Source: Luteolibacter flavescens (GTDB taxonomy: Bacteria > Verrucomicrobiota > Verrucomicrobiia > Verrucomicrobiales > Akkermansiaceae). From it: a stretch of 64,000 nt of DNA. Below the pieces are notes generated by a model. It was not told where the DNA came from and searched no databases. It saw only the letters and a list, made by a program, of their open reading frames with translations. Position numbers and translations under genes: made by a program. The stretch spans positions 1-64,000 of the forward strand of contig NZ_JAPDDS010000020.1 of the NCBI RefSeq assembly GCF_025950085.1, in the 5' to 3' direction. Of this stretch, positions 42,490 through 61,398 are shown one piece after another. Positions within the stretch are counted from its first letter, which is position 1. Each line of letters opens with the position of its first letter.

Positions 42490-44997
42490 CTACACCCGGC
42501 GGAGGACGATCCCGGCGATCATGAAGACGATGGCCGCAAGCCCGGCCCACGGCAGGGCGCTCGTGCGGATGCGCACCACCGGAATGCCATCGCGCGGAGC
42601 GGCGGAGACAAAGCTCTCCACCTTCGCCAGGGTGGGATCGGGCTGACCGGACAGGCGATACTCCGCCGGATAGCCGCGCTCCCAGCGGAGCGTCTTCACC
42701 TTGCCTCGCTCGGGATCGTGAAGGCGTAGCGTCAGCCGCGGCGCATCGCCGGGATCGACGCGGACCCGGTAGCGACCGATGCCGCTTTCCTCGATGCTGA
42801 CGGGGAATTCCTTGCCGGTGTCATCCAGCGCGTGACCGGTCCACGGCACCGCGGAGAGTGCACGCCCGGCGTCATCGGTGGCGCGGACGTCGATGTCCCA
42901 GCGCCCGCGCTCGCGGTGCGAGGCCGTCTCGATGCCCACCGACTCCTCCTTCCGCAGCGCGCCACGGAAGACCTGCGCCCAGAATTTCCCGCAGCCCTGC
43001 CAGGCCAGCCACTCACTGCCCCAGCGCTCGGTGAGGTCGCCGGTGAAGGCGATGCCGGTGCCAAGACCGAAGCGCCCCACCGCCAGCAGCGGATCGCCGG
43101 ACTCGACCGCGAGTAGCACCTGCGCGGTCGGCTTTGGCCGGGCCATCACGTAGCCGAGCACCGGAGGAAAAGCCGCGCTTTCAAAGCCAGCCATGATGGG
43201 ATGCTCGGTCACGCCCGCCGGCTCGTAGAGGTCTTCTTTGATCGCGGAGCGCGAGGCCTGCATCGTCTCGCGGGTGAAAATCTGCGGGACATTCTCGGGC
43301 GCATCCGTCTGATAGAAACGCCCGCGCCCGGCCTCCGCCATCTGCGAAAGCAGGTCACCCGCCGCGCCCTGACCCATCGCCACGGTGGATACGGTCATAC
43401 CGGAGTCGGACATCTCGCGGCACAGCTCGACGATGTTCATCGGATCGAACTGGCCGTCGGTGAGGCCGATCACGTGCTTCAGCTTCGCGCTCGCGCCGCG
43501 CAAGATATCGCGCGCCTGCACAATGCCCGGCTGCATGTTCGTGCCGCCACCCTCAGCAATCGAGTCGATGGCCGCGGCGACCTGTGCGCGGTTGGCCGCG
43601 GAGGTGAGGTCGAGCACGAGCTGCGGCTGATCGTCGAAGGCGATGACCGCGATCTGGTCCTGATTCCCCAGAAGCTCCGCCGCGCTGCGTGCCGCCTGGC
43701 GAGCTAGCTCCAGCGGCGGACCGGACATCGAACCGGACTTGTCGATCACCAGCACCATCGCGAGCGAAGGCTTCTCCTTGTCCTTCTCGAAGCGCGAGAC
43801 GAGGGGCAGCACCTCTTCCACCGGCGTCTTGAAATAGCCGCCGATGCCGAAGGTATTTTCCGAGCCGGTCATGATGAGACCGCCGCCGAAGTCGGTGACG
43901 TAGCGCTTCAGCGAGGCCATCTGCTTCGGCGAGATCGCGGTCGCGGGCACGTCGGCCAGCACGATGGCATCGAATGCCAGGATCTCCTCGAAGGAATCCG
44001 GCAAGCCGCGCGCGCCACGCGTCTCCAGCGTCACGTCCTGCTCGCGCATCAGGCGCTCGAAGGGCCGCATCTGCGCGGGCTTCTCGTGGATCACGAGGAT
44101 GCGCGGCTTCCCACGCACCGGCAGTGTCATCGAGAGGTGGTTGTTCGCGGGGAACCAGTCATCGTCCGGGACCAACTCCGCATCCCACACGGTATCGCCG
44201 GAGGTGACCATGCGGACCTCGGCATGACAGGCGGTCTCTTCCTTCGCGGTGAGCTTGATGGACTGCTCCGCCACGGCGACGCCGCGGTGGATGAGGCGCA
44301 GCTTCGCATTCATGTCGCGGTTCGACGCGACCTTCACGGTGAAGCGCACCATCTCCCCCTCGAAGGCGAGCGGGGTGCCCGCCTCGATGGAGGTAACCGC
44401 GGCCTCTGGCTTGTCGAGCGAGCCGAGCTTCACGAAGCGCAGGTCGGTCTTCTCCGTGGAAAGACGTTCCGCCGCCTCTGCCACCGGCCCTTCTAACAGA
44501 CCGTCCGAAAGCACCACGATGCGCCGCCCGCGATTCGCCGGGAGGTCGAAGCGAGCCCCGGCCAAGGCACCCGCAAGATCCGTGGACGAGCGGAATGCGG
44601 CATCGCCACGGCCTGCCTCGCACTCGGCGATGAATTTCTCCGCCTGCTCGAAATCGCTGCGCCGCAGCTCCCGTGCGAAGAGGAAGAGCGACCAGGTATC
44701 GCCGGGCCTGAGACCCTCGACGGACTTCCTGATCTCCGCGATGCCTCGCCGCATCTCGCCGGGATCGACGGACTCGGATCCATCTAACAGGAACGCGACA
44801 TGGACGTCATCGCTCTTGCGCGTGAAGAACGGGCGGCACAGCGCGAGCAGCAGCAGGAGCAGCGCGATGAAACGACAGAGCGTCGCCGCCAGCTTCATGG
44901 CCGGCGGGCGGTCCACCAGCGAGCGCCGGTAAACGAGGAAGAACAGCGGCACGGCAATCGCCAGGCCGAGGAGGGGCATCCAGGTGAGCAGTTCCAT
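42490..44997 (-). CDS. Large membrane VWA-domain protein (BatB-like), last gene of the Bat-like operon
   Basis: The 835-aa protein has two N-terminal helices (about 5-23 and 38-56) and a first VWA-like domain with a degenerate MIDAS (DGSES, 72-76). A beta-sandwich follows, then a class-I amidotransferase-like segment (about 298-400), a second VWA with intact MIDAS DKSGSMS (419-425), and a C-terminal helix. Such proteins pair with MoxR ATPases in Bat-type systems. The gene starts 6 bp after the stop of the preceding VWA gene. The combined VWA/amidotransferase fold is common in planctomycetes and verrucomicrobia, but its function is unknown. Confidence 0.82.
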   Translation of the reverse strand: MELLTWMPLLGLAIAVPLFFLVYRRSLVDRPPAMKLAATLCRFIALLLLLLALCRPFFTRKSDDVHVAFLLDGSESVDPGEMRRGIAEIRKSVEGLRPGDTWSLFLFARELRRSDFEQAEKFIAECEAGRGDAAFRSSTDLAGALAGARFDLPANRGRRIVVLSDGLLEGPVAEAAERLSTEKTDLRFVKLGSLDKPEAAVTSIEAGTPLAFEGEMVRFTVKVASNRDMNAKLRLIHRGVAVAEQSIKLTAKEETACHAEVRMVTSGDTVWDAELVPDDDWFPANNHLSMTLPVRGKPRILVIHEKPAQMRPFERLMREQDVTLETRGARGLPDSFEEILAFDAIVLADVPATAISPKQMASLKRYVTDFGGGLIMTGSENTFGIGGYFKTPVEEVLPLVSRFEKDKEKPSLAMVLVIDKSGSMSGPPLELARQAARSAAELLGNQDQIAVIAFDDQPQLVLDLTSAANRAQVAAAIDSIAEGGGTNMQPGIVQARDILRGASAKLKHVIGLTDGQFDPMNIVELCREMSDSGMTVSTVAMGQGAAGDLLSQMAEAGRGRFYQTDAPENVPQIFTRETMQASRSAIKEDLYEPAGVTEHPIMAGFESAAFPPVLGYVMARPKPTAQVLLAVESGDPLLAVGRFGLGTGIAFTGDLTERWGSEWLAWQGCGKFWAQVFRGALRKEESVGIETASHRERGRWDIDVRATDDAGRALSAVPWTGHALDDTGKEFPVSIEESGIGRYRVRVDPGDAPRLTLRLHDPERGKVKTLRWERGYPAEYRLSGQPDPTLAKVESFVSAAPRDGIPVVRIRTSALPWAGLAAIVFMIAGIVLRRV

Positions 44998-45003
44998 GCA
45001 GGG

Positions 45004-46752
45004 TCAGCCGGCCTTGCGGCGATGATAGAGGAGGAATTCGATGACGAGCATCGCGATGGCCAGCAGCAGCAGCCAGAAGGAGATGGGATAGCCGCGCTCG
45101 ACCGAGGCACCGCTGTCGGCAGGGCCGCTGCCGTCCAGCACGGTCTCCGAGCGCTCGAAGAGCGCGCCGCCGAACCAGCGTGGCCCGGCCTGCGTGGTCG
45201 CGAGGTAGTGGCCGAATTTCGACACGGTGAAATCACCGTCCGGGATGGAGCCACCGTCCGGCTTCGTGACCGGGCCGCCGGCATTCACCCGCGAGCCAGT
45301 GGGGTGCGCCGAGCGCAGCGCAGGGCCACGGCCGCTGAGATCGATGGCCGCGCCATGGACCAGCGCGGGAAAGACCGGCGAGAAGAAGAACTCGCCCTTC
45401 GACGGATCGAGATTCACCACGAGAGCATCGCGGCCTTCCACGCGGGCCTTCCAGATGAGCGGCTTCCCGGTCTCGGATGCGGCGAGGATCAAGGCACCGG
45501 CGACGGGCGTGAGATCGCGCGCGCCCTCGAAACGCATCGCTTCGAGATCCAGATGCTTTGTCACCGGATGGCCGGGGATTTTCGACTCCGCGGCGAGCAC
45601 CTCGATTTCCCCTGCCCCGCCGGTCCAGAAGGGCGACTCGCCGGTCGGCGCGAAAATCACCTGCCGCGGATCCGTGGTCGGGCTCCCCTGGGAGATGGTG
45701 ACATCCGCCCCCTCGTCCACGAGGGAAAGCATGCCGCCGGTCTGCGCGAATGACTCGACGCAGCGCTGGAAGAAAAGCGGCTGCGGGCCGACGACCTTTA
45801 CGGTGACGGGCTTCGGCTCGGCGAGACCGAGGGCAACCACATTGTCCGTCGCAAGCGCATCGGGGAACTTCAATTCGGCGGTCCACCGGCCCGGCGTGGC
45901 ATCGTCGATATCCAGCGTGTCGCTGGTCTCCTCGCCGGGCTTGAGAGTCACCGGGACAAGGCGGGCGAGGCCCATCTCATCGTGGCGCAGCTCCAGCTCC
46001 GCGCTCGTCTCCTGCTTCACCGAGGAGGCGATACGGTAGAAGAACACGGCACCGCGCGTGGTGCCGGGCTTGCGGTCCAGATCCGCGGCGATGAAGCCGG
46101 CATTGGGCGCGGACGGGGTGAGGCGCATGATTTCCACGCCGGGATCAAGGCCTTCCCATCCGGGATTCCCATCGGTGATGAGCAGCACGCGCCCGGCACT
46201 GCCCGCGCCCTTCGCGCAGGAGTTCAGCGCGGCCACGGTCTGCGGCCCCACGGGCACGTCGGCCACCTGCAGGCGCGAGATGGCGTCGGTGAGATCCTTC
46301 GGCGAATCGCTGGCGTGACTGAGGAAATCGAGCTCGCCCGAGGCGGTGGCCAGCGCGGCACGGCGGGTGCCATTGAGCGCGCGGATGATGTCGCGGGCGC
46401 GGTCCTTCGCGTCTTCCAGACCGTCCTTGCCACTGCCATCGGCTCCCGTCTTCGCCCGCATGGAGGGCGAGGTGTCGATGACGATGAGCAGGTCACGCTT
46501 GTCCTGCGATGCCGGACGCGGCCCCGCCGCGGCGAAGGCGATGGCCCCGAGTGCGAGCGCGAGCAGCAGCAGCGAGAAGAGATCACGCAGGCGCTGGAAG
46601 AGCGATGATGCCTTCTTCTCCTGGAAGATCTTTTCCCAGAGGAAGAGTGCATTCACCGGGAAGCGGCGCGGGCGGACCTTCAGGAAATACGCCGCGGCGA
46701 GTGGCGCGAGCGCCGCGAGCATCCACAGGAAGCTGGGGGAGGTGAAGTTCAT
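45004..46752 (-). CDS. BatA-type membrane protein with VWA domain
   Basis: The 582-aa protein starts with the BatA N-terminal domain: helix 1 at about 8-23, the FPVNALFLWEKI motif, and helix 2 at about 58-77. A VWA domain follows with DTSPSM (93-98), a non-canonical MIDAS with Pro for Gly. A long beta-rich region leads to one C-terminal helix (about 555-575). It is predicted to sit in the inner membrane with its large domain outside. It is transcribed between the DUF58 and second VWA genes. Confidence 0.85.
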   Translation of the reverse strand: MNFTSPSFLWMLAALAPLAAAYFLKVRPRRFPVNALFLWEKIFQEKKASSLFQRLRDLFSLLLLALALGAIAFAAAGPRPASQDKRDLLIVIDTSPSMRAKTGADGSGKDGLEDAKDRARDIIRALNGTRRAALATASGELDFLSHASDSPKDLTDAISRLQVADVPVGPQTVAALNSCAKGAGSAGRVLLITDGNPGWEGLDPGVEIMRLTPSAPNAGFIAADLDRKPGTTRGAVFFYRIASSVKQETSAELELRHDEMGLARLVPVTLKPGEETSDTLDIDDATPGRWTAELKFPDALATDNVVALGLAEPKPVTVKVVGPQPLFFQRCVESFAQTGGMLSLVDEGADVTISQGSPTTDPRQVIFAPTGESPFWTGGAGEIEVLAAESKIPGHPVTKHLDLEAMRFEGARDLTPVAGALILAASETGKPLIWKARVEGRDALVVNLDPSKGEFFFSPVFPALVHGAAIDLSGRGPALRSAHPTGSRVNAGGPVTKPDGGSIPDGDFTVSKFGHYLATTQAGPRWFGGALFERSETVLDGSGPADSGASVERGYPISFWLLLLAIAMLVIEFLLYHRRKAG

Positions 46753-46897
46753 GGCCGATCAAGCTTCGTGGCGGAATGACGACGTCGTTCCAGTTGGAGA
46801 AGGCGTCGCCGGAGCATCGTGAGCGGCGGCATCATGCGCGCCTTGCCCTGCCGGAAGGGACGCAGTCCTTCCGCTACTAAGATGCATGAAAGGCTCC
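46753..46897. repeat. Operon gap with a solo REP element (46850-46877)
   Basis: The 145-bp gap between the DUF58 and BatA-type genes holds one copy of the palindrome GGAAGGGAC-GCA-GTCCTTCC followed by GCTAC. It matches the second core of the 145-bp array at 27140-27709. No gene is seen. Confidence 0.75.
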
Positions 46898-47794
46898 TCA
46901 CGCAGCGAGCCCTCCTCTCTGTAGGATGGCGCGGATCACCTCGTCGAAGGCCTCGCTGTCGAGCGTGCGGGTGAAGCCGATGCCGCGGCGCGCGCACTCG
47001 ACGCGCAACTTCTCATTCCACTCCGCCACGGCGGCGGCGTAAGCATCGAGCTCGCGGGCGGTCACGGTCACCTTGCGGCGCTTGCCGGACTCCACGCACT
47101 CCAACTCCAGATCGCCCTTGCGATCGCACTTCAGGTCCTCCTCGGACAGCACCTGGATCGCATGCACGTCATGGCCGAGACCGGAGAGCCGCTTGAGGCC
47201 TTCCTCAAATCCACCCGGGAAAAGGAAATCCGATACCACGACCACGAGTCCCTTCTTCCGGTGCCTCGCCTGGAGCGTCTTCACGCAGGTGTTGAAGTCG
47301 GTGTCCTTGCCGAAGCAGGTCGCGCTTTCCAACGAGCGGAGGAAAGGGAGCACCTTGCCACGGCCGCGCGACGCCTCAAGGAGCGGCCGCAATTCGTCCG
47401 CCATGCCGTAACAGGCCACGCGGTCCTGGCAATTCAGCCCGATGTAGCCGAGTGCCGCGGCGAGCTTGCGAGCCATCGCCGTCTTCGTCTGCATCGAGCG
47501 GCTCATATCCAGCAGGAGATAGACGGTCGCATCTTCCTCCAGTTCGAAAAGCTTGATGACCAGCTCGTCGAAGCGCGCATACACTCGCCAGTCGATGGCC
47601 CGGTAGTCATCGCCATGGCGATACTCGGCGTAGTCCGCGAAGGTGATGCCCGTGCCCTTGCGCGTGCTCTTGCGGTCCGCCTGCATCGACCCGCCCAGCA
47701 CGCGACGGACGAGAAGGAACAAGGTCTCCAAGCGACGGATGAACGCCGCGCCGGTCAGCTCGCCGGGAGGAAGGGATTCGAGGGGTTCGGGCAT
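46898..47794 (-). CDS. DUF58 (VWA-like) protein, MoxR partner
   Basis: The 298-aa protein has the DUF58 signature around YRHGDDYRAIDWRVYAR and a MIDAS-like DMSRSM (96-101). DUF58 proteins accompany MoxR ATPases and are thought to be substrates or adaptors in chaperone-like maturation. No membrane segment is present, so it is cytosolic. Its start lies 2 bp after the lipoprotein stop, indicating tight coupling to the inserted gene pair upstream. Confidence 0.9.
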   Translation of the reverse strand: MPEPLESLPPGELTGAAFIRRLETLFLLVRRVLGGSMQADRKSTRKGTGITFADYAEYRHGDDYRAIDWRVYARFDELVIKLFELEEDATVYLLLDMSRSMQTKTAMARKLAAALGYIGLNCQDRVACYGMADELRPLLEASRGRGKVLPFLRSLESATCFGKDTDFNTCVKTLQARHRKKGLVVVVSDFLFPGGFEEGLKRLSGLGHDVHAIQVLSEEDLKCDRKGDLELECVESGKRRKVTVTARELDAYAAAVAEWNEKLRVECARRGIGFTRTLDSEAFDEVIRAILQRGGLAA

Positions 47795-47796
47795 GG

Positions 47797-48282
47797 CTAC
47801 AATTGATTGACGAAATCTTCCAAATAGGAGTCGTAGCCGTTAAAGAATGCCCATCCGAATCGATCTACCTTAATAGATCGAACCACTCTGCCGGAGTTCA
47901 GATCGACGACTGATCCCTGTAACGTTTTCATCTGCCCGTCGAGGTAGGTGGTATAGGTGAAGCTCAACGCATAAACCGACCTCAACTGCTTTTCGCTAAA
48001 TGACTCGATCCGGCCGGTCGTGCGGCTCGGCTGATGAGACACCCCAAACTCTGTGACCACTGATCGCCGGGCAACGTCGTCAGAGACCACGTTGTATCCG
48101 CGGTTAACCAAAAGATGCTCAATCTCCTCTCGGAAACCTAGGTGATCGCTTCGTTTGCACGTGACCGTTATCGTTGCGGCGGTCGGGACCGCTGCAGCTG
48201 ACGTAGGACGACTGCTGGAAGCACAGGAGGAAAGGAGAGCCAACGAGGTGAGCGCAAGTAAAGCGAATCGAAGGAGATTCAT
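47797..48282 (-). CDS. Small lipoprotein, unknown, inside the Bat-like operon
   Basis: The start is placed at 48282, where MNLLRFALLALTSLALLSSC is a lipoprotein signal with lipobox LSSC (Cys20). The 161-aa product then has an alpha/beta domain with VTCKRSDHLGFREEIEHLL and SGRVVRSIKVDRFGWAFF. No family is recognised. Base composition is visibly less GC-rich than the flanking MoxR and DUF58 genes, so recent gain is possible. It is transcribed with the operon. Confidence 0.65.
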   Translation of the reverse strand: MNLLRFALLALTSLALLSSCASSSRPTSAAAVPTAATITVTCKRSDHLGFREEIEHLLVNRGYNVVSDDVARRSVVTEFGVSHQPSRTTGRIESFSEKQLRSVYALSFTYTTYLDGQMKTLQGSVVDLNSGRVVRSIKVDRFGWAFFNGYDSYLEDFVNQL

Positions 48283-48332
48283 AACGTCGTTGAGAATATT
48301 GAGGAGGGCGTGAATGGCAATCGTGAGGAGCT

Positions 48333-48587
48333 TCACTTAGAACTACATCCGTAGCAGGTGTCTTCTCCTGGAACCGAAGGCAATAGCCCGCAGTGCCTGC
48401 ACAGACGAGAATTGACGACTTTGGCTTTCTTACCTTTGCGCCTCGCCTTCTTGGGGCCATCTCCCACAACCTTTGGACATCGCTTCTGGAGATGAGCTTG
48501 CAGTTTGTGGCCGGAAATCGGTGAGCCGCACTTCGGGCACGAAACAAGAACAGGACGCTCGTGACGTGGGACATCGTCTGCTTCCAT
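48333..48587 (-). CDS. Small zinc-finger protein, unknown, inside the Bat-like operon
   Basis: The ATG at 48587 gives an 84-aa product. It has an N-terminal CPKC plus His32/Cys37 finger (Cys17, Cys20) and a C-terminal four-Cys ribbon (Cys63, Cys66, Cys78, Cys81), separated by a Lys/Arg-rich stretch. It could bind nucleic acid or act as a structural zinc protein. It starts 46 bp after the MoxR stop. GC content is lower than in its neighbours, as for the next gene. Confidence 0.6.
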   Translation of the reverse strand: MEADDVPRHERPVLVSCPKCGSPISGHKLQAHLQKRCPKVVGDGPKKARRKGKKAKVVNSRLCRHCGLLPSVPGEDTCYGCSSK

Positions 48588-48633
48588 GCCTTTCAACTTT
48601 CGTCAATTTCGCCCCTTTCGTTGTTACCCAACT

Positions 48634-49614
<981 letters not shown>

Positions 49615-49976
49615 GGGAAGATCGTGGATGGGAGATCGGAGATAGAAGATGGCGGATCAAACGACCGTGTAGCGGTCAAGGATGGTAGCCGTGGACTTCA
49701 GCCCACGGACAGGAGTTCGTGCGTTCGCTGTCGCCTCGCGACAGAGGATTCCGGGCCTGTGGATCAGAGGATGATCGCCACGCCGCCCGTCGGGTTCCAG
49801 TGTCGCGATGCGACACGGTTGCCTGCGCCGCGTCTCCGTGGGCTGAAGCCCACGGCTACCATCCTGGGTCACCACGCGACCGGGAGACGGGTCACACGTG
49901 GAGACATGCAAGTCGATCGCGGGGAGGAGAGAGGCCATGGGGAATCCGGAGGAGAAAGTTGTCTCAATGGCGGCTC
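49615..49976. other. Operon gap dominated by a REPIN-like element; no gene
   Basis: The 362-bp gap between the coiled-coil and MoxR genes contains the 187-bp element at 49679-49865 and short flanks. Open frames across it are chance products of the palindromes. No promoter consensus for moxR was found. Confidence 0.6.
49679..49865. mobile_element. REPIN-like non-autonomous element with nested inverted REPs
   Basis: The ends carry a perfect 16-bp inverted repeat (49679-49694 and 49850-49865) that extends to about 31 bp with one mismatch. Each end is itself a hairpin (CCGTGG.CTTCAGCCCACGG). Inside lies a second inverted pair, TGTCGC-N-TCGCGACA (near 49729 and 49801), also with one difference. 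Two REPs in inverted orientation define a REPIN, normally mobilised by RAYT transposases. None is present in this window. Confidence 0.7.
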
Positions 49977-51602
49977 TCATTCCGCAGGCGCATCGCCGGT
50001 TTCGTGGACTCGTTCGAAGTATTCGCGGACGCCGAGCTTCAGCTCTTCCGGGATGTCGTCGCGACGGACGAGCGACTCCATCTGGCGGCGGAAATCGCGC
50101 TGCTTCGCCACTCCGGCACGACCGGCGATGCCGGTGCCGCTCTCGGCGGACTCGACGGTATTGGAAGACGGGCCCTCGCCGTTCGGGTTGCCCTTGATCT
50201 CGGCGCGGTTGTTGTTGTCCTTGAGTTCATCGCGCCCGTCGCGACGGCTTTCCACGCTGCCCCTGCCCGCTTGCTTGCCGCCGGGCTGCTGGCCCTGCGC
50301 CATGGACCGGCCGAGGCCGAGCGTCTGGCTCTGGCCTTGCGCGAATTGCCTCGCCTCGCTCATGCCGGCACGCAGCTTGCCGAGCTTGTCCTTTGCCTTC
50401 TGCCGCGCGCCGAGTTGGCCGAGGCGGTCACCGAGCTTGTCCATCTTCTCGCCCAGCTTCATGGCCATCGCCTCGGCGTCGGGGTCAAATTCACCCTGCT
50501 CCAGCTTCGCGCCGAGCTGACGGGCATCGGCATCCATCTCATCGAGCATTTCCTGCAGCGGCTGCTGGTTGCCCGGGTTCGCCTGCATCTGCTCGCCGTC
50601 CATCTTGTCGCCCGGCTTCATCTTCTTGCCGAAGTTCCGCTGGCGCGCGCCGTCCGCCATGCGCTTGGCCATTTCCTTGGCCTTCGCAGCGTTCTTCTTG
50701 AGCTGCTCCAGCTCCTCCGGCGTCATCTTCTCCTTTCCTTCGGGCTTCATCTCGCCGAGTTCCTGCTTCGCCTTTTCGAAATCCTTCGCGTCGAGCTGCT
50801 TGCCGAGCTGGCGGGCATCCGCGAGCGATGACTTCGCAAGCTCCTCGGCGGAAAGCTTGATCACCGCCTCATCCTGCCGCGCCTCCAGGCCCTGCATCGC
50901 CTTCGCGAGTTCCTGCTCGAATTTCGCGATCTGCTTCTCCGCCTCGCGCTGGTCCTTGGTCTCGGCGAGCTGCTTCGCCAGTTCGCGCAGCTTCGCGGGG
51001 TCGAGCACCTTCCGCTCTTCCTCGCCGAGGTCCTTGATCAGCTCCTCCACGGCTTCCTCGACCTGCTTCTTCACCTCGGCGCTGCGCATCGCCGTCAGCT
51101 CCTCGCTGGCGATGCGGTCGCGCACGGCCTGGCTGTGCGGGAGGAATGCCAGCACCGCGGCGATGACCGCCAGCAGCACGCCGATGCCGTAGGAGCGCTT
51201 CGGATGCACCAGCGGGACGCCCGCAGGGTCCAGCGAAGAGACCCTCGCGGCCAGCATCCTTTCCTGGAGCTGATAGACCTCGCCATCCCCGCCCTTTGAC
51301 CGGAAGCCGAGCCAGGAAAGCAGGCCGTCCTTCAGGCCGAAGGTCTCGTCCGCAGCCAGCGCGGCATCCGTGGAATTCCTCCGGGAAGCGATCAGTGCGA
51401 TCACGAAGACAAGCAGCGCCAGGCCGAGCGCGACGGCATAGCCGACGCGCGGGGCCGCATAGCCGAATGCCCGCCATGCCACCGCCCAGACGAGGCAGGT
51501 GCCGGCAGCGGCAAGCAGGCACCGGGCGCCGATGCGCGATGCGATACCGCGGTCAAGACGCCGCCGGACGGCATCGAGGAATGAAAGGAGGGAGGTGTTC
51601 AT
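49977..51602 (-). CDS. Membrane protein with long charged coiled-coil C-terminal region
   Basis: The start at 51602 overlaps the stop of the giant TPR gene (ATGA), showing translational coupling; the longer frame is antisense to its end. The 541-aa product has two N-terminal helices (about 27-45 and 52-72) and a third near 128-146. A long Glu/Lys/Gln-rich alpha-helical region follows (about 165-420), then a Gly/Gln/Asn-rich low-complexity tail. No enzymatic motif is visible. It probably sits in the inner membrane with the helical part projecting from it. Confidence 0.75.
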   Translation of the reverse strand: MNTSLLSFLDAVRRRLDRGIASRIGARCLLAAAGTCLVWAVAWRAFGYAAPRVGYAVALGLALLVFVIALIASRRNSTDAALAADETFGLKDGLLSWLGFRSKGGDGEVYQLQERMLAARVSSLDPAGVPLVHPKRSYGIGVLLAVIAAVLAFLPHSQAVRDRIASEELTAMRSAEVKKQVEEAVEELIKDLGEEERKVLDPAKLRELAKQLAETKDQREAEKQIAKFEQELAKAMQGLEARQDEAVIKLSAEELAKSSLADARQLGKQLDAKDFEKAKQELGEMKPEGKEKMTPEELEQLKKNAAKAKEMAKRMADGARQRNFGKKMKPGDKMDGEQMQANPGNQQPLQEMLDEMDADARQLGAKLEQGEFDPDAEAMAMKLGEKMDKLGDRLGQLGARQKAKDKLGKLRAGMSEARQFAQGQSQTLGLGRSMAQGQQPGGKQAGRGSVESRRDGRDELKDNNNRAEIKGNPNGEGPSSNTVESAESGTGIAGRAGVAKQRDFRRQMESLVRRDDIPEELKLGVREYFERVHETGDAPAE

Positions 51603-54600
51603 TTCTTTTCCGCTGCCTTGTTGATCAGATCCTGCATCCACTTGCGCTCTTTTTCGTCGAGATCGTCGAGCTTGATCTCCTTCGCGATCGCGGCGGCCTC
51701 CGCCGGTTTCTTCTCGCGGTCGTCGGTCCACTTCGCGCGGTAGGCGCGGGCGTAGGCGATGGACTTCGCGTCCCCGCTCGCCTTTGCCGCGGCGTCGGCG
51801 GCATCGAAGCCCTTGATGGCATTCTCCTTCTCGTCGGTGCGCCAGCCAATGATCCCGGCTTTCTCCGTGAGGAATTTCGCCTTCATCGGGTGCTCCGCGG
51901 GCAGGCCGTCCACCGCAGCGAAGATGTCCTCGCGGGTGAAGGCCTTTGAGTCCAGCAGGGCGGAGAGATCGGTCGGGTGCTTGATCTCGCGCTTCAGCGT
52001 CGCGTCGTCGGACAGCATCGCGGCGAGCAATTCACGGCGCGGCTTCTCATATGCCGCCTCGCTGAAGGTCGGCTCATGGAGCATGGGGAATGACTGCGCC
52101 AGCGAGTACTGCTTGCGGACCTCGTCATAGCGCTTCCGCGAGTCCTCGGGCAGGCCCTCCAGCCAGCGATCAAAGGCCGAGCCATCCCCTGCCGCGACCT
52201 GAGACATGATGCCGAGCGGGATCACGTCGCGCTGCATTTCCCGGCGGTTGAATGCCAGCAGGTGCTCGCAGATCTTCAGCGCTTGGGCCGCGCCCGCCTT
52301 CTTCTTCTCGCCATCGAGCTCGTGGATGCGGAGGACGAGCATCGCGGCCAGCGGGTCGAAGAAGCGATCCATCTGCTGGGTCGCATAATACTCGTTGTTC
52401 CCGTCGGCGATGAGCTGGATCGACTCCACCTGCCGGGCGAGGCCGGCGGGGTCTCCGGTTTCCGCGAGCTGGCAATACGTCAACTGCTTCAACAAGGCCT
52501 CCTGAACCGCCTGCTCCTCGCGATCGACGGGAGTGCCATTGTAATTCGAACTCGATACCGCGAGGACCAGCGATCCCATGTCCACGCCCTTCGTGAGGGT
52601 CTCCAGCTCCTCCAGCAGACCCTGCGAGGCGGCAGCCTCCACCGAGAGCGCGGCGAGCGCTTCCATGCGCGATGCCCGTGACTTCGGAGCCTCCGCGGCG
52701 AAGCGCTTGGCCAGCGCGGCAAGACGATCCGCGCGCTTCACCGATGGCGCGGCGTCGTCCTTCGCATCCGGCAGACAGGAGACCAGGCACTCCATGCGGA
52801 ACCTCTGTGTGGGGTCCTCGATCACCGCCACCCAACCCTTCAACGCGGCCTCGATCTCCTTTGAGAAAGCGGGCAGCGCATCCCCGTCTTCCTGATTTCC
52901 ACCGAGCACGACCGCCCGCAGTCCTTGGTGGAACTCGCCCGGCCGCGCGATCAGGAGCTTGGCGGAGTCGCCGAGACCTCCCTGCCAGAGCTTCATCATC
53001 AGATCGAGCCGCCCGCGCATGCCGGAGCCCGACCGGACCGCCCGCGCGATGCTCTCCGCGTCACCGGCCCGCAGGGCGAGGGAAAGATTCAGCGAGGAGA
53101 TCGCCCCCCGTGCCTTGTCCTCGTCGCCGCTGCCATTCGCATAGTCGATGCGGCTCTTCTCGAAGGCGGCCAGGAGTTTCTTCGCATCCTCCGGCGGGAT
53201 GCTCTTCCACGAGGCGAAGCGATTGAGCGCAGGCACCGAGACGTAGCCGGCCCAGGGACGCTCCGGGGTGAGGAAGGTGGAGAGGAAGTCCACCATTGCC
53301 TTGGCGCAGGCGGGATCGTCGAAGTGATCCGCCGGGCGATTGTGCAGCACGCCGGCCAGCGTGGCGAATTTCAGGTCGGCCGGGATGCCCGGTGCCGAGA
53401 CGAAAGCGGCGAAGCTGGCGCGCAGCTCGGCCTTCGCCGTGTCGTCCAGGCGATTCCCGGCTGCAGACATCACCGCGAGGTGGACGGCATTCGCGAGCGA
53501 AGGATCGGCTTTCTTCAGGTCGCCATCCGTCCATGCGGACAGCTTCTCGCGCCAACCGTTCGAATAGTCCCACGAGCTCTGATAGCGCATGCGGGAGATC
53601 ACCAGCGCGCCCATGATACCGCGGAGTTCCTTTGGAGTCTCCTTCGCGAGCAGGGCGTAATAGCCGGCATTCGCGGGCAAGCCCGCGGGCACCTTGACCT
53701 TCTTCACCTCGGCTTCGCGGACCTTCGCATCCTCTCGGAAGATACGGTCGAGGTAGTAGGAGAAGTTGTTCTCGTACTGGCCCAGCTTTGCCGACGCCGG
53801 TTGCTTGTCGAAGGCGGCTAGGAAGCCGAGGAGATCGCGCAGGCTGCCCCCGCGGCTGATCATGGAATCCATGAGCTGGGAGTGCGCGTAGGTCTCTGCG
53901 GCGGTCATGTAGCCGCCGCTGCTCGACGACCAACCGCGTGCATTCGCACTCATGTGCTCCAGGCACATGTTCCAGAGCTTCGCCGCCAGCTCGGGATCGC
54001 TGCCCGCGAGGCGTGCGACCAGAGGTTGCAAGCCGCTGTCGGAGGAATACGGCTGGAGAGTCGGCGGCAGGCCATCCTTGAGATACTCCTCGGCCTTCTT
54101 CCTCGCCTCGATGTCGCCGACCTTCAGATTCTCGGCTAGCTGCTTCTTCACGGAGGCGGAGGCGTTCTTCGCGGCATCCGGCAGCCAGGTGCCGACGAAG
54201 CTCCACAGCGCCTGACGCTCCTCCGGCGTCCACTTGCCGATGGCCGAGGCCTGGCGGTCCAGCTCGGCGTAGGCGGTCTGCGGCTTGTTCGCCAGCACCG
54301 CGCCGAAGATGCGCGCCCAGAAGCGATCCGGGCCGTCCACTTTCATCAGTTCCTCACCCAGCTTCGGCGAGCCATCGCGCTGCTTCACACGGTTCAGGCC
54401 GTAGTCGAGCATGCTCTTGCCATTGCCATCGATCGCGTTCGCGACGATGTCAGGGCCCGGCGAAAAGTAGCCCGAATCCAGCAGGGTCTCCGCCTTCGGG
54501 AGACCGCCGCCGGGGCTATCGAGGATCTGGTACCAATTCAGCGATCCCATGTTCGCCAGCCCGTGGGCCGAGACGAAGCGCATCGCACAGACGGCGGTCG

Positions 54601-57600
54601 CCGGGTTGCCATTGAAAGACGAGAAGAGATTCTGGAAGGCATTGATCCGCTGGTTCGGCCCGGGCAGATAGATCCCGCTCTTCTGCATCTCCGCATAGAG
54701 CGGCCATGCTTCCTCCGGTCCCAGGATCTTGATGGCGAAGCGATGCAGCTCCGCGCTGCGCGCCTGTGGGTCCTTCGCCTGCTCGACCGTCCGGGAGAGT
54801 TCCCGGCTGAAGGACTGCGAGTCGTAGGTGCCCTGCCGCAGCGCTTCACACATGAAGTCCTCGATCGCCGTGCGCAGGTCCTCCCTCTTCGCCGCGGCCG
54901 CGGCACGCGAGATCCACTCCAGCTCCAGCACCACCTGCTGGCCGCGATCCATGGGGCGCTCGGCATTCGCCTTCTTCCACTCGTCGAATTTGGCGACGCC
55001 GGGAGTCTTCGCGATCTCCTCGCAGGTCTCCATGATCTTCGCCCAGTCGCCGTTCTCCTTCGAGAGGCTGAGGAGGAATTCCTTGTCGTAGGGTTCCAGC
55101 ACCTTGCCCTCTTTCGCCCGCTTCGCCAGCCACGCGGACGGCATCAAGCCCTGCGGCGCGCCGCCACCGGAGGACGAGCCATTGCCCCGGATCCACGACC
55201 ACATGTAGTCCCGCCGGTTTCCGTAGAACCTGCGGTTCGCCTCCGGTTGCTCGATGCGGATCACCAGGCGCAAGGCACCCAGTGCCGCGGCGTCCAGTTC
55301 CTCATCGGCGGCCCCCAGGACGTCGCGGGTGCCGGCCAGCATCACGAAGCCCTGCTCGGTGGTCTGCGGATGCAGGATCATCGCGCGGAACATCTTCTTG
55401 CAAAGATCCTCCCGGCGCTTGGACACCTCCTTGTTGTAGTTGTTGCTCTCACCTGCCTTCCGGAAAAGCGGCGTCATCTGGACGTCCATGTAATCATCCG
55501 TGGTGATGCGGACCATCATGTAGTTCACCCACGAGAGATTGCGCTCGGCCTTGAAGCTCGGCTCGAGGTTCTCGAGCAAGCCCGCCATCGCTTCCAGCGC
55601 ATCGAGCCTCTTCGACGCGCTGTTCCCTTCCACCCATGAGGAAAAGAGCACCGATATCACATCCTCGTCGAAGTCGCCCTTCGCGAGTTCCTTTGCTTGC
55701 TTGAGCTGCTCCTCCGGCTTCAGCACGGAGTAGAGGGCGGTCTTCACCGTCAGGTCGTCCGGCTTCTCCTCCGCCAGCTTGCGCAGCAGCGGCCCGGCCT
55801 CCTCCTTTTTCTCCAGCGACATCAGCAGCATCGCGTGGTCCAGGCGACGGGCATAGCTGGCCCCCTCGGCAGGCGCGCTCACCAGGATGAGTTCCTTGTC
55901 CAGCTTGAGGGACTTCGCCTGCGAAAGCACGCGGTCGCGCTCGTAGCTCGAATTGTGCGTTCCGGCGGATTGGCGCAGACTGCCCAGCAGCAAGCGCGCG
56001 GCAGCGTCCCGCTTCCCATCCTTCACGAGTCGCGCGACGTCTTCGCCGTTCCTGCGACTGGGCGACATCATCCGGGAACCGCTGCCATAGCGGTTCCGCA
56101 TCGCGCGGCTGGCGAAGCCGCTGGCAGGTCCGCTCAGGTAGCGCTTCGACTCATCCTCCAGGCCGAGATCCTTCAGCCATGCGGCGACCTGCCCCTTGAG
56201 TTCGGGATTGTAAGACGAGCCCTTGCGAAGGCGGAGTGCCGCCCGTTTCGCGGGCTCCAGATCGACGCCCTCGGTCTTCGCCTTCGCGAGTGCCACGCCG
56301 GTGGTCACGATCTCCTGCTCCACCCGGTCACGCCAAAGACCGGCATCCGGCACCTCGCGTGCCTTCAAAAGCAACGCGTAGGATTTCTCCGGGGACTTCT
56401 TCGCGTGGAAGCACGAGGCGAGCAACAGCTCCTCGATGCTCGGACTCGCCGCAGCCTCGATCTCCGCGACCTCCCGCTCGACTTCCTTCGACTTGCCCGC
56501 CTGCTCGTAGATGCAGACGCGGGAAATGCGGTCGTCCAACTTGCCGGTCAAGGCGGCGAGCGCCTCGGTGTCCAGCGGCTTCACCTGCGGCTGGCCGGGC
56601 ATTCCGTTCTCGGACTCTCCCAGCAGCTTGAGCAGGCGCCGGTGAGTGTCCGTCAATCCCATGCCGCCCTGGCTGCGGGTGCCGCCGAGGAGATTGCTCA
56701 ATTGCGGGGAAAGCTCCTGGAGCACCTCCGGGTAGCTCTGGGCATTTGCCCGGCCACCACCACGGAAACCCATGCCCCATGGCGAGTACATCCCGCGATA
56801 GCGGGAGCTCGCGAGCTGGGCCTTCTTCGGGTCCTTCTTCATCTCCGCATTCAGGCGGTTCAGCCACTCGATGCCGCGCTCGATCTGGCCGTCCCTCATC
56901 CAGCGGCTCGCCAGTTCGAATGAAAGGTAGTTTCCCGTGATGCCGTCCGGGGACTTCTCCATCTGGGCGATGAAGAGATCCTCGGCCTCCTTCTTCAGTT
57001 CCTTCGGCACCTTGTCCCCGGCGAAGGCAATGGTCTGGAGCTGGTGGCAATTCCTCTCCTGCTTCTCGGCAGGGAGAGTCTTGAAGAGATCGATCCGCTG
57101 CCGCGCCCCCTTCTCACCCGCACCCTCGTCGCCATCGAGCGGCAGGCGGCTCGCCATCCACAGTGCGAACTCGGGATCATCCTTCTCCATGAGGTCCACG
57201 CCGCGCTGCATCAGGCGCGCGAAGTCGGGATCCGGCTTGTTCTGGCTGTTGTTCGAGGATGCCGTCTGGAAGTACCAGCGGAAGTCATCCGCCGAGGCCT
57301 TTTCGCTCATCACGAGTTCCTTCATTTCCTCCGGCTTGAGGAAGAAGACTTTCTTGAAAGTCTCCAGATCCTCGAAGTGGCTGGATGAAACCTTCGCGAC
57401 GATCGCGGCACGCTTTTCCTCATTGTCACGCGCCACGATCATGAGCTGGGCGAGTGCCATGCGACGCATGGCATCTGCCGACGCGGGCAGGAAGATCTCA
57501 CCCGGCTGCATCCCGGCGTAGTAGCCGTAGCGATCCGGGTCCTTCGCACTCATGATCTGCGACTGATATCCCTGATACTCCGGCATCGCCTTGCGCGTCA

Positions 57601-60475
57601 CCGTCGGCTTCTTCGTCGTGGGATTCATCCCCGGATGCCCATAGGGATAGCCGTAGGGGTTCCCATAGCGGTTCGCCAGGACCGGCGGTGCGTGCTTCAG
57701 GTCGCCATCCGCCTCCAGCAGGGTGGCGAAGCGGTCCATCGCCTCGTCAATCTTCCCGGCCTCCAGCAAGACGACCGCGAGCATGTAGGAAAGCCGCCAA
57801 TCCTCCGGGAATGTGAGCACCTCCCGGGCGAGCACGGTGGCGGCGGCCTCCCACTCCTTCGCGCGGGCCAGCGGCATCACCAGCTTCTCCACCGCACGCG
57901 GGTCGGTGGACTTCCCGCCCTCGGCCAACTCGCGCAGGCCGCGCTCGGTCTCGCCCTGGCGGATCCAAAATGCGGAAAGGCGGCGGCGCGCCTCCGGAGC
58001 GTCCGCTCCCGACATCATCCCGCGAAGGATCTCCGCCGAGGCTTCCATGTTTCCCGCCGTTTCCTGCAGGTCGGCGATGCGGAACTTGAGCTGCGAATCA
58101 TCCGGCTTGCGGCGGGCGGCTTCCTCCACGCACTTCAGCTCCTCCTCCGTCAGCATCCACTCGCGATACATGTCCGCGAGCGCCAGCAGCGGAAGCGGCG
58201 ACGATGGATTGTCCCGCGAGCGGCGGCGGAAGTCGGAGATCAGCTCCTCCTCCTTGCCCTCCATCTCTGCCATGCGCGCCAGGCCCGCGGCCCACTTCAG
58301 CTTCGAAGCCGGGGATTCTGCCTCGTCATAGAGCGCGGTGAAACTCCGCCACGCCTCTTCCATCATGCCGGCCTCGCGCTGGGCCTCGGCGAGCTTTTCA
58401 CGAAGCTCTTCCTCGCCGCCGAATTTCGCCAGGGCACGACGCAACTCCGCCACGGCCTCCGCCGGGCGACCATCGCCGAGGTAGAGCTCGGCGCGCTTCG
58501 TCCACGCCAGCTTGTCGCCGGGCGCGAGCTTCAGCCACTCGTCCGTCGCCGCGAGCGCCTTCTCTGAATCTCCCGCGCGCTCCAGCAGCTCGACGAGCTT
58601 CTTCACGTGGGCCGTCTTCGTCCCGCCGGGCAGCGCCATCATCTCGCGCATCGCGGCGACCGCCTCATCCATGTCCCCGCGGATCTCGTGCAGGCGCACC
58701 CGCTGCGTCGCCGCCAGCAGGCTATCGTCCGCCGCCATCGCGTCCTTCAGCACCTGCTCCGCAGCAATGCTGTCGCCCAGCGTCTCGTGGATCTCGGAAA
58801 GCAAGCAACGCTCCTGGAGCGTCAGGTCGGGCTTCGCGGAAAGCTGGTCCAGCCACTTCTTCGGCTCCTCCGCCCGGGCGATCAGTCCGCTCGCGAGCTT
58901 CAGGGCCGTGTCCAGATCGGTCGGAGATTTCGCCTGGCGCACCAGTTCCATCGCCTGCGGCACCGCGGCCTCCGGCGTGTCGCTCAGTTGTGCCGCCTGG
59001 CAGAGCGCCGCGAGCAGGAGCGGGTCATCCGGGAAATCCTTCACCCGCGGCTGGAGCATGGCGAAGGCCTCGCTCGACTTGCCATGGGCGGAAAGCGAAC
59101 GCGCGATCCGCATCAGTCCCTCGCGGTCCGCGCCGGCCGCCATCTCCTTCCACAGCGCTACGGCCTCGTCGCCCTTCTCGCGGGACACCAGGAAGGTCGC
59201 CAGCGCTTCACCCGCCTCGCCATCCTTGCCGTGCTTCGCCATCGCATCGCGGAGGATCTTCTCCGCGCCGTCGAATTTCTCGAAGCGCTCCAGCAGGCGG
59301 GCGCGCGCCACCAGCCCCGCCTCGTCCTCCGGCGTCAGCGCGAGCGCCTTGTCGAGCGCCGCCGTCAGGCCGGCCTCGTCCTTGAGGGTCTTCCGCAGCG
59401 TGGCCAGCCTTTCCCACAGGCCCACGTCCTGTTTCGCCGTCTCGAGCAGGGCCACCAGCTCGTCCGCCGCTTCCTTCGGACGCTCGGCGCCTTCCAGCAG
59501 GCCGATGAATTCCTCGCGTACCTCGCGATCGCCGGGGAGCACCTTCAGCACCTCGCGGAACATCGCGATGGCCTCGTCCTGCTCGCCCGAGGCCAGCAGC
59601 GACTTCGCCGCCTCCTTCTTCACCGCCACGCGGCGTGGATAGGATTCGCGCAGACCGCCGAGGAATTCCTTCAAGCCCGCCGAGTCATCCTCGCGGGAGA
59701 ACAGGGCACCGGCACGCGCGAGCACCTCGCGCTCCAGCCACGAACCCTCGGCCGAGACCGCGAAGACATCGCGATACTCCTTCAGCGAATCCTCTTTCTT
59801 CCCTGCCTGGGCAAGGATCTCCGCCACCTGCAGGCGGCGCAGCGCCTTCTTGTAGGGATCGTCGGTCTTCTCGGCCAGCTCCCGCGCGGCGGTCACCGCC
59901 TCGTCCAGCATGCCCTCGCCGATCTCCAGCTCGACCAGATCTTCCTTCAGCCCCTCGTCTGCGGGATTCGCGGCAATGAGTTCCTGCCACGCCTTCACCG
60001 CCTCGCCCGGACGTCCGGCCCGAGCCAGCATCTTCCCGCGCAAGGTGCCGGCTTCCACACCGAGCGTCTTGTCCTTCGCCGCCACGGCCAGGTCGTCCAG
60101 CGCGGCATCGAAGCGCAGCGCCACCCCGAGCGCCTTGCCACGGGCCAGCCGCGTGGCCGCGTCCTCGGGCGCGAGCTTCACCGCCTCGTCCAGCGCCTTG
60201 AGCGCTGCGGCCTCGTCGCCGGAATGCTCATGATAGACCGCGAGCAGCCGCCAATCCGCCGCCGCTCCCGCCTTGGCCCGCTCCTCGAGCTCGGGCTTCA
60301 GCGCCTCGAGCTCCTTTTCCTCAAGCCACGCATCGAGCATGCGGCCGAAGAGCACCGGATTCTCCGGCTTCTTGAGGAGCATCGTGCGGTATCGCTCCGC
60401 CTTCTCCGGAATCTCACCGGCGTTCAGGGGGAAGGCGAACGCTGCCAGAATGAGAATAACTTTCCGGTTTATCAT
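51599..60475 (-). CDS. Giant exported TPR-repeat protein, first gene of the Bat-like operon
   Basis: This single uninterrupted 2,958-codon frame encodes a protein of about 320 kDa with a signal peptide (MINRKVILILAAFAFPLNAG). At least the first 950 residues are tandem TPR hairpins of about 34 aa (for example DEAAALKALDEAVKLAPEDAATRLARG). A Tyr/Pro/Gly-rich loop (GNPYGYPYGHPG) follows, and further helical-repeat blocks with short GYG/RGMYSPWGMG-like loops run to the C-terminus. No transmembrane helix beyond the signal is evident, so it is probably periplasmic. Bat operons usually contain small TPR proteins; this one is far larger. Its stop overlaps the next gene. Confidence 0.85.
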   Translation of the reverse strand: MINRKVILILAAFAFPLNAGEIPEKAERYRTMLLKKPENPVLFGRMLDAWLEEKELEALKPELEERAKAGAAADWRLLAVYHEHSGDEAAALKALDEAVKLAPEDAATRLARGKALGVALRFDAALDDLAVAAKDKTLGVEAGTLRGKMLARAGRPGEAVKAWQELIAANPADEGLKEDLVELEIGEGMLDEAVTAARELAEKTDDPYKKALRRLQVAEILAQAGKKEDSLKEYRDVFAVSAEGSWLEREVLARAGALFSREDDSAGLKEFLGGLRESYPRRVAVKKEAAKSLLASGEQDEAIAMFREVLKVLPGDREVREEFIGLLEGAERPKEAADELVALLETAKQDVGLWERLATLRKTLKDEAGLTAALDKALALTPEDEAGLVARARLLERFEKFDGAEKILRDAMAKHGKDGEAGEALATFLVSREKGDEAVALWKEMAAGADREGLMRIARSLSAHGKSSEAFAMLQPRVKDFPDDPLLLAALCQAAQLSDTPEAAVPQAMELVRQAKSPTDLDTALKLASGLIARAEEPKKWLDQLSAKPDLTLQERCLLSEIHETLGDSIAAEQVLKDAMAADDSLLAATQRVRLHEIRGDMDEAVAAMREMMALPGGTKTAHVKKLVELLERAGDSEKALAATDEWLKLAPGDKLAWTKRAELYLGDGRPAEAVAELRRALAKFGGEEELREKLAEAQREAGMMEEAWRSFTALYDEAESPASKLKWAAGLARMAEMEGKEEELISDFRRRSRDNPSSPLPLLALADMYREWMLTEEELKCVEEAARRKPDDSQLKFRIADLQETAGNMEASAEILRGMMSGADAPEARRRLSAFWIRQGETERGLRELAEGGKSTDPRAVEKLVMPLARAKEWEAAATVLAREVLTFPEDWRLSYMLAVVLLEAGKIDEAMDRFATLLEADGDLKHAPPVLANRYGNPYGYPYGHPGMNPTTKKPTVTRKAMPEYQGYQSQIMSAKDPDRYGYYAGMQPGEIFLPASADAMRRMALAQLMIVARDNEEKRAAIVAKVSSSHFEDLETFKKVFFLKPEEMKELVMSEKASADDFRWYFQTASSNNSQNKPDPDFARLMQRGVDLMEKDDPEFALWMASRLPLDGDEGAGEKGARQRIDLFKTLPAEKQERNCHQLQTIAFAGDKVPKELKKEAEDLFIAQMEKSPDGITGNYLSFELASRWMRDGQIERGIEWLNRLNAEMKKDPKKAQLASSRYRGMYSPWGMGFRGGGRANAQSYPEVLQELSPQLSNLLGGTRSQGGMGLTDTHRRLLKLLGESENGMPGQPQVKPLDTEALAALTGKLDDRISRVCIYEQAGKSKEVEREVAEIEAAASPSIEELLLASCFHAKKSPEKSYALLLKAREVPDAGLWRDRVEQEIVTTGVALAKAKTEGVDLEPAKRAALRLRKGSSYNPELKGQVAAWLKDLGLEDESKRYLSGPASGFASRAMRNRYGSGSRMMSPSRRNGEDVARLVKDGKRDAAARLLLGSLRQSAGTHNSSYERDRVLSQAKSLKLDKELILVSAPAEGASYARRLDHAMLLMSLEKKEEAGPLLRKLAEEKPDDLTVKTALYSVLKPEEQLKQAKELAKGDFDEDVISVLFSSWVEGNSASKRLDALEAMAGLLENLEPSFKAERNLSWVNYMMVRITTDDYMDVQMTPLFRKAGESNNYNKEVSKRREDLCKKMFRAMILHPQTTEQGFVMLAGTRDVLGAADEELDAAALGALRLVIRIEQPEANRRFYGNRRDYMWSWIRGNGSSSGGGAPQGLMPSAWLAKRAKEGKVLEPYDKEFLLSLSKENGDWAKIMETCEEIAKTPGVAKFDEWKKANAERPMDRGQQVVLELEWISRAAAAAKREDLRTAIEDFMCEALRQGTYDSQSFSRELSRTVEQAKDPQARSAELHRFAIKILGPEEAWPLYAEMQKSGIYLPGPNQRINAFQNLFSSFNGNPATAVCAMRFVSAHGLANMGSLNWYQILDSPGGGLPKAETLLDSGYFSPGPDIVANAIDGNGKSMLDYGLNRVKQRDGSPKLGEELMKVDGPDRFWARIFGAVLANKPQTAYAELDRQASAIGKWTPEERQALWSFVGTWLPDAAKNASASVKKQLAENLKVGDIEARKKAEEYLKDGLPPTLQPYSSDSGLQPLVARLAGSDPELAAKLWNMCLEHMSANARGWSSSSGGYMTAAETYAHSQLMDSMISRGGSLRDLLGFLAAFDKQPASAKLGQYENNFSYYLDRIFREDAKVREAEVKKVKVPAGLPANAGYYALLAKETPKELRGIMGALVISRMRYQSSWDYSNGWREKLSAWTDGDLKKADPSLANAVHLAVMSAAGNRLDDTAKAELRASFAAFVSAPGIPADLKFATLAGVLHNRPADHFDDPACAKAMVDFLSTFLTPERPWAGYVSVPALNRFASWKSIPPEDAKKLLAAFEKSRIDYANGSGDEDKARGAISSLNLSLALRAGDAESIARAVRSGSGMRGRLDLMMKLWQGGLGDSAKLLIARPGEFHQGLRAVVLGGNQEDGDALPAFSKEIEAALKGWVAVIEDPTQRFRMECLVSCLPDAKDDAAPSVKRADRLAALAKRFAAEAPKSRASRMEALAALSVEAAASQGLLEELETLTKGVDMGSLVLAVSSSNYNGTPVDREEQAVQEALLKQLTYCQLAETGDPAGLARQVESIQLIADGNNEYYATQQMDRFFDPLAAMLVLRIHELDGEKKKAGAAQALKICEHLLAFNRREMQRDVIPLGIMSQVAAGDGSAFDRWLEGLPEDSRKRYDEVRKQYSLAQSFPMLHEPTFSEAAYEKPRRELLAAMLSDDATLKREIKHPTDLSALLDSKAFTREDIFAAVDGLPAEHPMKAKFLTEKAGIIGWRTDEKENAIKGFDAADAAAKASGDAKSIAYARAYRAKWTDDREKKPAEAAAIAKEIKLDDLDEKERKWMQDLINKAAEKK

Positions 60476-60801: not shown

Positions 60802-61200
60802 TCACGAGCGGCGGACCGTCTCCCGCAACTCCAGCATCGTAGGCTCGTTGCAGTAGGGACAGCGGAAGTGCCCCTTCACCAGGACGCCATAGGCGACGGG
60901 AAGACGATAGCTGCCAGCGACGCACTTGGCGTTCCGGTTCCGCGAGCATCCCTTCTTCACGAGCACCGGCATCATGCAGAGCGGGCACTTGCCTCCGGAC
61001 GCGAAGATCCATTGGAAAATGGCCAGCAGCACCGCACCGACACCGACCGCCAAGGCGATCTTCAAATAGTCATGTTCTCCCGTCACGACCCCGTAAATGA
61101 CGAGGCCGATGGCAGTGGGAATCATCAACCTGCTGATGATTAACAATAGTGCTGCCATCTGCAGCTTGAAGATGATTTGGGCGTGTCTTGGTCGGTGCAT
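60802..61200 (-). CDS. Small membrane protein with cytoplasmic zinc ribbon, unknown
   Basis: The ATG at 61200 gives a 132-aa product with two hydrophobic helices (about residues 16-39 and 48-66). A Cys-rich domain follows: CPLC (72-75), Cys85, Cys93 and CPYC (114-117), consistent with one or two zinc sites. No family is recognised. It is transcribed on the minus strand between hrpA and the giant TPR gene, with lower GC content than either. Confidence 0.6.
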   Translation of the reverse strand: MHRPRHAQIIFKLQMAALLLIISRLMIPTAIGLVIYGVVTGEHDYLKIALAVGVGAVLLAIFQWIFASGGKCPLCMMPVLVKKGCSRNRNAKCVAGSYRLPVAYGVLVKGHFRCPYCNEPTMLELRETVRRS

Positions 61201-61398
61201 GGCGACTTGCGATCCGATTAGGCGGAAGACTTGTATCGCCGCGCCAAGATCATTCCGCAAATCCGAAGATCATGAAAAGTTTGCAAACATGGGGGAAGCT
61301 CCCACCCGCTTGAGGAAAATCGGGCGAAATCACTTAACTTAGCTAAAGCAAGTCCTCGCAAAGTTGCAGAATGCGCCCGTCTGAGCCGCCCAAGTGGA

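Follow-up and report, generated by a model that had tools for sequence, protein, structure and literature searches.

We find that a family of giant TPR proteins and a membrane machine with a MoxR-type ATPase and VWA proteins are inherited together in a scattered set of Verrucomicrobiota; hence, the two very probably work together. The evidence starts from a block of genes in the window, by which we mean the whole 64,000-nucleotide stretch of Luteolibacter flavescens DNA that was analysed (G, C and L numbers denote genomes, contigs and loci throughout). The original prediction had placed eight same-strand genes at 42490-60475, and all eight open reading frames were found there, on the minus strand (Table 1). 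The coupled stop/start on which it drew is real, ATGA at 51599-51602 being the start of the membrane coiled-coil protein (CC) overlapping the stop of the giant. Six of the eight genes form a conserved core, in the order giant - CC - MoxR - DUF58 - BatA-like VWA - VWA/GATase1-like, the last of these encoding the protein that we call VWA835. In a comparison of 195 loci, the zinc finger and lipoprotein genes were matched in no genome but that of the window. The gap between CC and MoxR (49615-49976) contains an inverted repeat with arms of 44 nt (49666-49709 and 49835-49878) that are 84% complementary, and this element is matched at nine further sites in the genome (on C3, C4, C17, C25 and C26, and twice each on C5 and C15). 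Scans for promoters (1 site vs 1.7 expected) and terminators (11 vs 11.7 expected) gave counts not above those of shuffled sequence. Upstream of the giant, at 60802-61260, lies a gene for a small protein with a zinc-ribbon match below the Pfam cut-off, relatives of which are found near a giant in G007 and G009.

Table 1. Genes of the block and the repeat element within it, by position in the window.
Feature	Coordinates	Strand	Description
Giant TPR protein	51599..60475	-	2,958 aa; heads the block; TPRs by Pfam and TPR PSSM
CC, membrane coiled-coil protein	49977..51602	-	541 aa; three hydrophobic segments near the N-terminus
Inverted-repeat element in the CC-MoxR gap	49666..49878	.	Outside the conserved block
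MoxR-type AAA+ ATPase	48634..49614	-	326 aa; Pfam AAA_3 and AAA_lid_2
Small zinc-finger-like protein, accessory	48333..48596	-	87 aa; zinc-finger matches below the Pfam cut-off
Putative lipoprotein, accessory	47797..48336	-	Lipobox-like LLSSC; likely start 48282; no Pfam family
DUF58 protein	46898..47794	-	298 aa; Pfam; no hydrophobic segment
BatA-like membrane VWA protein	45004..46752	-	582 aa; Pfam BatA N-terminal domain and VWA_2; three hydrophobic segments
VWA835, membrane protein with VWA and GATase1_like	42490..44997	-	835 aa; Pfam; three hydrophobic segments

Membership of the giant in the MoxR/VWA cluster, as opposed to its being a TPR gene never found beside moxR/VWA genes elsewhere, had been predicted and is borne out by comparison with other genomes. 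The arrangement giant-CC-MoxR-DUF58-BatA-VWA is found again in several families of the window's order and in other classes of the phylum, and the giant lies directly upstream of CC in 36 of 56 CC genomes; in most linked genomes, it is the first gene of the block. Orthologues of the block in relatives were recognised by profile only. G007, G008, G009, G037 and G045 have the same order as the window. In a survey of the phylum, 14 of 240 genomes had a match to a CC profile, 11 of them at E < 1e-40 and the other three at about 1e-4 to 1e-5; in a survey of the order, 51 of 288 had one, comprising 46 strong matches (37 of them new) and five with E values from 1e-5 to 1e-8. We set aside the weak matches of both surveys. 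In all eight new strong CC genomes from the phylum (G103, G245, G261, G183, G204, G105, G061 and G213), CC is immediately preceded by an open reading frame of 3,055-3,882 aa with a match to the giant profile, and followed by the rest of the block as far as the contig reaches.

A same-strand giant is directly upstream of CC in 14 of the first 19 CC genomes, where the two genes overlap or are separated by at most 25 nt in nine of the 14, and by 95-230 nt in G007, G009, G037 and G045; the spacing is unsure in G008, and all spacings were measured from the first start codon of each open reading frame. Of the next 37 CC genomes, 22 have the giant directly upstream; these 22 include G400, with only a 622-aa piece, and G333 and G471, where the giant is cut by the end of the contig. 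The giant is not directly upstream in 13 of the 56 CC genomes, namely G036, G049, G050 and ten of the 37, the upstream sequence spanning only 2.5-7.5 kb in several of these ten. A large open reading frame precedes CC in G405 and G390 and does not match the giant profile, and in G018, G329, G388 and G367 the sequence upstream of CC was not covered, the contigs of G018 being too short to tell. In G030, two giants come after the block; in G309, which belongs to these ten, a giant is located behind the VWA gene and on its strand; and in G036, G049 and G050 the giant is on a different contig from CC, as is VWA835.

We also examined 16 loci from named genomes that were found with the giant. Ten of them have CC and MoxR next to it on the same strand (L094, L096, L097, L099, L103, L104, L105, L106, L108 and L109), two are contig-cut (L095 and L102), three show no CC (L098, L101 and L107), and L100 has two giants in tandem, with the contig ending just behind the second. 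Some of these loci coincide with G genomes (L094 = G008, L099 = G328, L097 = G480, L105 = G490, L108 = G469 and L102 = G018), and the two sets were not added. The L100 contig is labelled Akkermansia muciniphila; since 18 genomes of genus code g3, which we guess to be Akkermansia, gave no CC match, the label may be wrong.

Giant and machine occur together irrespective of their position. Among 57 relatives, CC is present in 11, the same 11 in which we found a close VWA835 orthologue (E < 1e-240), and a giant match at E < 1e-40 was obtained in every one of them. CC is lacking from the other 46 relatives, which yielded one strong giant match, in G005 (61% complete), and weaker TPR matches (E 1e-8 to 1e-3) in nine. 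This pairwise search scored five candidates per genome and misses deep giants; a TPR-half profile was next applied to 34 selected genomes, 19 with CC and no clear upstream giant, and 15 for comparison. At E ≤ 1e-40, the profile matched 18 of the 19 CC genomes and none of the 15 comparison genomes, three of which (G035, G043 and G047) have a weak CC-like match of about 1e-5. G296 and G356 have short giant pieces only, and G367 has CC with no giant detected. Thus, a giant-family protein, sometimes a fragment, is present in 55 of 56 CC genomes (36 linked, G030, and 18 by profile), and the partnership of giant and machine persists where their genes are unlinked. CC itself is patchily distributed: within the window's genus, it is present in 4 of 18 genomes. 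Shared regulation could in principle produce such a pattern, if giant and machine served the same envelope stress or lifestyle and made no contact; however, gene order is conserved between the window's order and other classes, and genomes that lack CC have almost no strong giant matches, so that we consider this explanation improbable.

The giant is a real gene under purifying selection, since its dN/dS against the G009 orthologue is 0.19 overall. Its N-terminus resembles a Sec signal peptide by eye, and no segment rises above the hydropathy threshold used; signal peptide and topology, here and for the membrane proteins described below, were taken from the sequence and not from a trained predictor. 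The best Pfam TPR stretches all lie before residue 930. A TPR PSSM iterated on 14 giants, with the threshold set at the level reached by 3 windows of 14 shuffled giants, detected 26 TPR windows that start before residue 930, the first of which overlies the signal-like N-terminus; hence, the count of TPR units, a check proposed with the original prediction, comes to about 25 tandem TPRs between residues 40 and 926. Only five TPR-like windows were found by the PSSM in the remaining ~2,000 aa. Pfam gave a TPR_Slam match below its cut-off at 1547-1596, and profile comparison detected a TPR-like stretch near residues 1320-1590 with a probability of 87 and assigned the last third of the protein a probability of 1; two tail profiles searched against the PDB returned matches at E 0.018 or worse only. 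The profile of the N-terminal half matches bacterial TPR proteins in the PDB, among them PA4667 of Pseudomonas (2.4e-15), which we take to be LbcA, a partner of a protease that is not known to work with MoxR/VWA proteins. LbcA is a bacterial TPR protein like the matched part of the giant, but its solved chain has 540 aa and the giant 2,958 aa.

Constraint is distributed unequally over the giant. Against G009, dN/dS is 0.09 for residues 40-930, the TPR half, and 0.22 for residues 1000-2958; the other five core genes range from 0.03 to 0.10, so the TPR half is constrained like CC (0.095), and nearly like MoxR (0.066), whereas the tail is looser. Mean pairwise identity across 19 operons is 18% for the tail and 32% for the TPR half (the halves being split by residue number, not by alignment), compared with 38% for BatA, 48% for VWA835, 58% for DUF58 and 68% for MoxR. 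In the same operons, distances between TPR halves track those of BatA (r 0.98) and VWA835 (r 0.97), as expected for any vertically inherited genes.

In a quick 40-row tree of the TPR half, drawn with a midpoint root, operon-linked giants fall on both sides of the deepest drawn fork. All seven rows on one side are linked; orphan giants, which are frequent, occur at several places on the other. The linked/unlinked label changes 7 times on this tree vs 12.3 times in shuffles. Because linked giants stand on both sides of the fork and the label changes less often than in shuffles, linkage looks ancestral, followed by duplication or relocation, with the placement of the long branches G049_orph2, G061 and G050_orph2 unsure. 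The deepest match to a giant, in G061, is a weak one (211 bits, residues 26-1398), so convergence of TPRs is possible there. The genome of the window has an orphan giant paralogue of 2,732 aa (G000:C6:268394-276592, L035) that does not adjoin MoxR; it forms one clade with the orphans of G007, G008 and G009.

The machine proteins divide by their hydrophobic segments, which were found in CC (24-42, 53-71 and 137-155), the BatA-like protein (6-24, 58-76 and 557-575) and VWA835 (4-22, 36-54 and 814-832), and not in MoxR or DUF58. In the BatA-like protein and VWA835, the loop between the first two segments is basic, suggesting that this loop is cytoplasmic and the VWA domains periplasmic; by the same rule, the coiled coil of CC would be periplasmic. 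MoxR has both the AAA_3 domain (6.4e-62, 207.7 bits) and the AAA lid that mark the MoxR AAA+ family, and its best solved chain is 2r44 (3.7e-83). In VWA835, residues D419, S421, S423, T486 and D514 are invariant in 13 sequences and are presumably those of the MIDAS motif. Because solved GATase1-like chains match this protein both before the VWA domain (3rht, profile 338-401) and after it (2gk3, 589-684), the VWA domain (about 414-575) seems to be inserted into a GATase1-like fold.

CC reaches no Pfam cut-off, and its C-terminal motif is conserved. Protein searches with CC returned few names, all from Verrucomicrobiota where legible, and other phyla were covered through plasmid records. One CC orthologue is named 'DUF4175 domain-containing' by one source. 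We rejected this assignment for CC: DUF4175 is absent from the five Pfam families found for the window's CC at E ≤ 5, and is not among the best 25 of 42 Pfam families for 17 CC members.

The reading that we lean towards, which we hold at slightly under an even chance, is that an inner-membrane MoxR/VWA machine is dedicated to giant exported TPR proteins as its clients or partners. MoxR and DUF58, with no membrane segments, would act at the cytoplasmic face, and the BatA-like protein, VWA835 and CC would be anchored in the membrane, their VWA domains and the coiled coil lying most likely on the periplasmic side. We infer that the giant would be exported, that its conserved TPR superhelix would dock on the VWA/CC domains, and that the chemistry of the machine, ATP hydrolysis by MoxR, would power loading, folding or release of the giant; the fast-evolving tail of ~2,000 aa may perform a variable job, facing outward or towards clients. 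We favour this reading because strong giant matches are almost never found without the machine and the machine is nearly always found with a giant, and because giants are often in excess and their TPR half is as constrained as CC.

A close rival is that the giant is a fixed structural subunit, a periplasmic scaffold towards the outer membrane that organises other clients, as is thought for the small Bat TPR proteins. The position of the giant at the head of the block, its co-occurrence with CC and the CC-like constraint on its TPR half would all be consistent with a scaffold; for the Bat proteins of Leptospira, moreover, VWA and TPR domains have been proposed to form a large complex (PMC3557215). 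However, a scaffold would be harder to square with the number of giants. The 11 CC-bearing relatives have one CC each and eight of them have two giant loci; G388 has seven matches to the giant TPR profile on several contigs, some of them fragments on short contigs; and orphan giants are frequent. Such surplus giants fit clients better than a fixed subunit, although paralogous subunits are possible. We regard the scaffold as possible but doubtful.

The original prediction described the block as Bat-like, with no recognisable BatD. The Bat (Bacteroides aerotolerance) operon comprises batA-E with moxR and duf58, BatB being a second plain VWA protein and BatC and BatE small TPR proteins. The block has moxR, duf58 and a gene for a BatA-type VWA protein in one cluster, and thus shares with Bat the MoxR and DUF58 proteins, the BatA-type N-terminal domain with VWA, and a TPR component. 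In contrast to Bat, it has CC, its second VWA protein is the 835-aa GATase1-like type and not a plain VWA protein like BatB, and its sole TPR protein has 2,958 aa, unlike the small BatC and BatE. No BatD was found in the block with Pfam, as predicted; BatD is instead encoded at G000:C1:242807-245212, in a separate Bat-type run of the same genome (G000:C1:242807-250931, L156) with the order MoxR-DUF58-(DUF4381-like)-VWA-VWA-BatD, in which the DUF4381-like protein scores 26.1 bits vs a cut-off of 27.2. With BatD in a separate operon and a last VWA protein of the GATase1-like type, the Bat-like label has to be given up, and it is very unlikely that the block is an ordinary Bacteroides-type aerotolerance operon with an enlarged TPR member. 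Furthermore, no giant lies beside the MoxR/VWA genes of five comparison regions (G000:C1, G051, G037:C7, G001 and G002). Since the BatD run is separate and the comparison regions lack a giant, we conclude that the block is a distinct cluster type.

The largest neighbour in the comparison regions is a 1,449-aa TPR and PQQ-propeller protein encoded between MoxR and DUF58 (L152:2320-6669, G051:C116). A third MoxR cluster, at G000:C1:264448-276174 (L150, L151), has a more distant relative of VWA835, and many of the 57 relatives have VWA835 matches similar to that of the third cluster (about 1e-42 to 1e-61).

MoxR, DUF58 and a PF07090 VWA protein stand side by side in the window (Pfam), the arrangement of MoxR-DUF58-GATase1-like-VWA clusters. 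The alphaproteobacterial versions of this cluster presumably include a DUF4175 membrane protein, a member that Pfam did not detect in the window's CC. Clusters on plasmids of Ketogulonicigenium robustum and Deinococcus aetherius have MoxR and a large VWA protein related to VWA835, as do three clusters from the window's taxonomic order (G037:C7, G051:C116 and G000:C1); DUF58 is present in all of these except the Deinococcus cluster, where it is not annotated. Unlike the block, none of the five has a giant TPR protein in the stretches compared. The bifidobacterial PFNA cluster (pkb2-fn3-aaa-atp-duf58-tgm) likewise encodes a large secreted protein, FN3, ahead of a MoxR ATPase and DUF58, and its authors suggest that MoxR may help to fold FN3 (PMC8430577). 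The block differs from PFNA in having no kinase, transglutaminase or FN3 by Pfam, in its giant being a TPR protein, and in the presence of VWA proteins and CC. Among the titles and displayed abstracts of the open-licence PMC literature, we found none that describes this block.

The window's MoxR also scores above the cut-off of Pfam bpMoxR, a family of MoxR-vWA-beta-propeller systems (37.0 vs 27 bits, against 207.7 for AAA_3), which raises the question of a MoxR-vWA conflict or defence system like those of multicellular bacteria. PADLOC, however, gave partial matches only (MoxR eight, CC one, the other four proteins none), with E values between 1e-4 and 7e-3, Pfam found no beta-propeller domain in the block, and most of the components look exported or membrane-bound. 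We therefore rejected a defence role, which we consider scarcely credible.

A broader proposal, which we put forward as speculative and rather doubtful, is that the block represents an undescribed and ancient envelope system of Verrucomicrobiota, in which a single dedicated MoxR/VWA machine would assemble one or more TPR superhelices of ~320 kDa, the conserved TPR halves plugging into the machine and the fast-diverging 2,000-aa tails forming a lineage-specific outer structure. If this is true, giants depend on the machine for their function, and their near absence from genomes that lack it would be explained. To our knowledge, MoxR/VWA clusters are widespread, and for most of them the client is not known. 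In the present case, a single protein family accompanies the machine across the genomes that we examined, also where the genes are not adjacent, and a testable partner can thus be named. Giant genes are common in the related Planctomycetes, with 45 in one strain and a presence in 29 of 29 genomes there according to the Fuerstia paper (PMC5177795), and the block gives context to a class of such genes.
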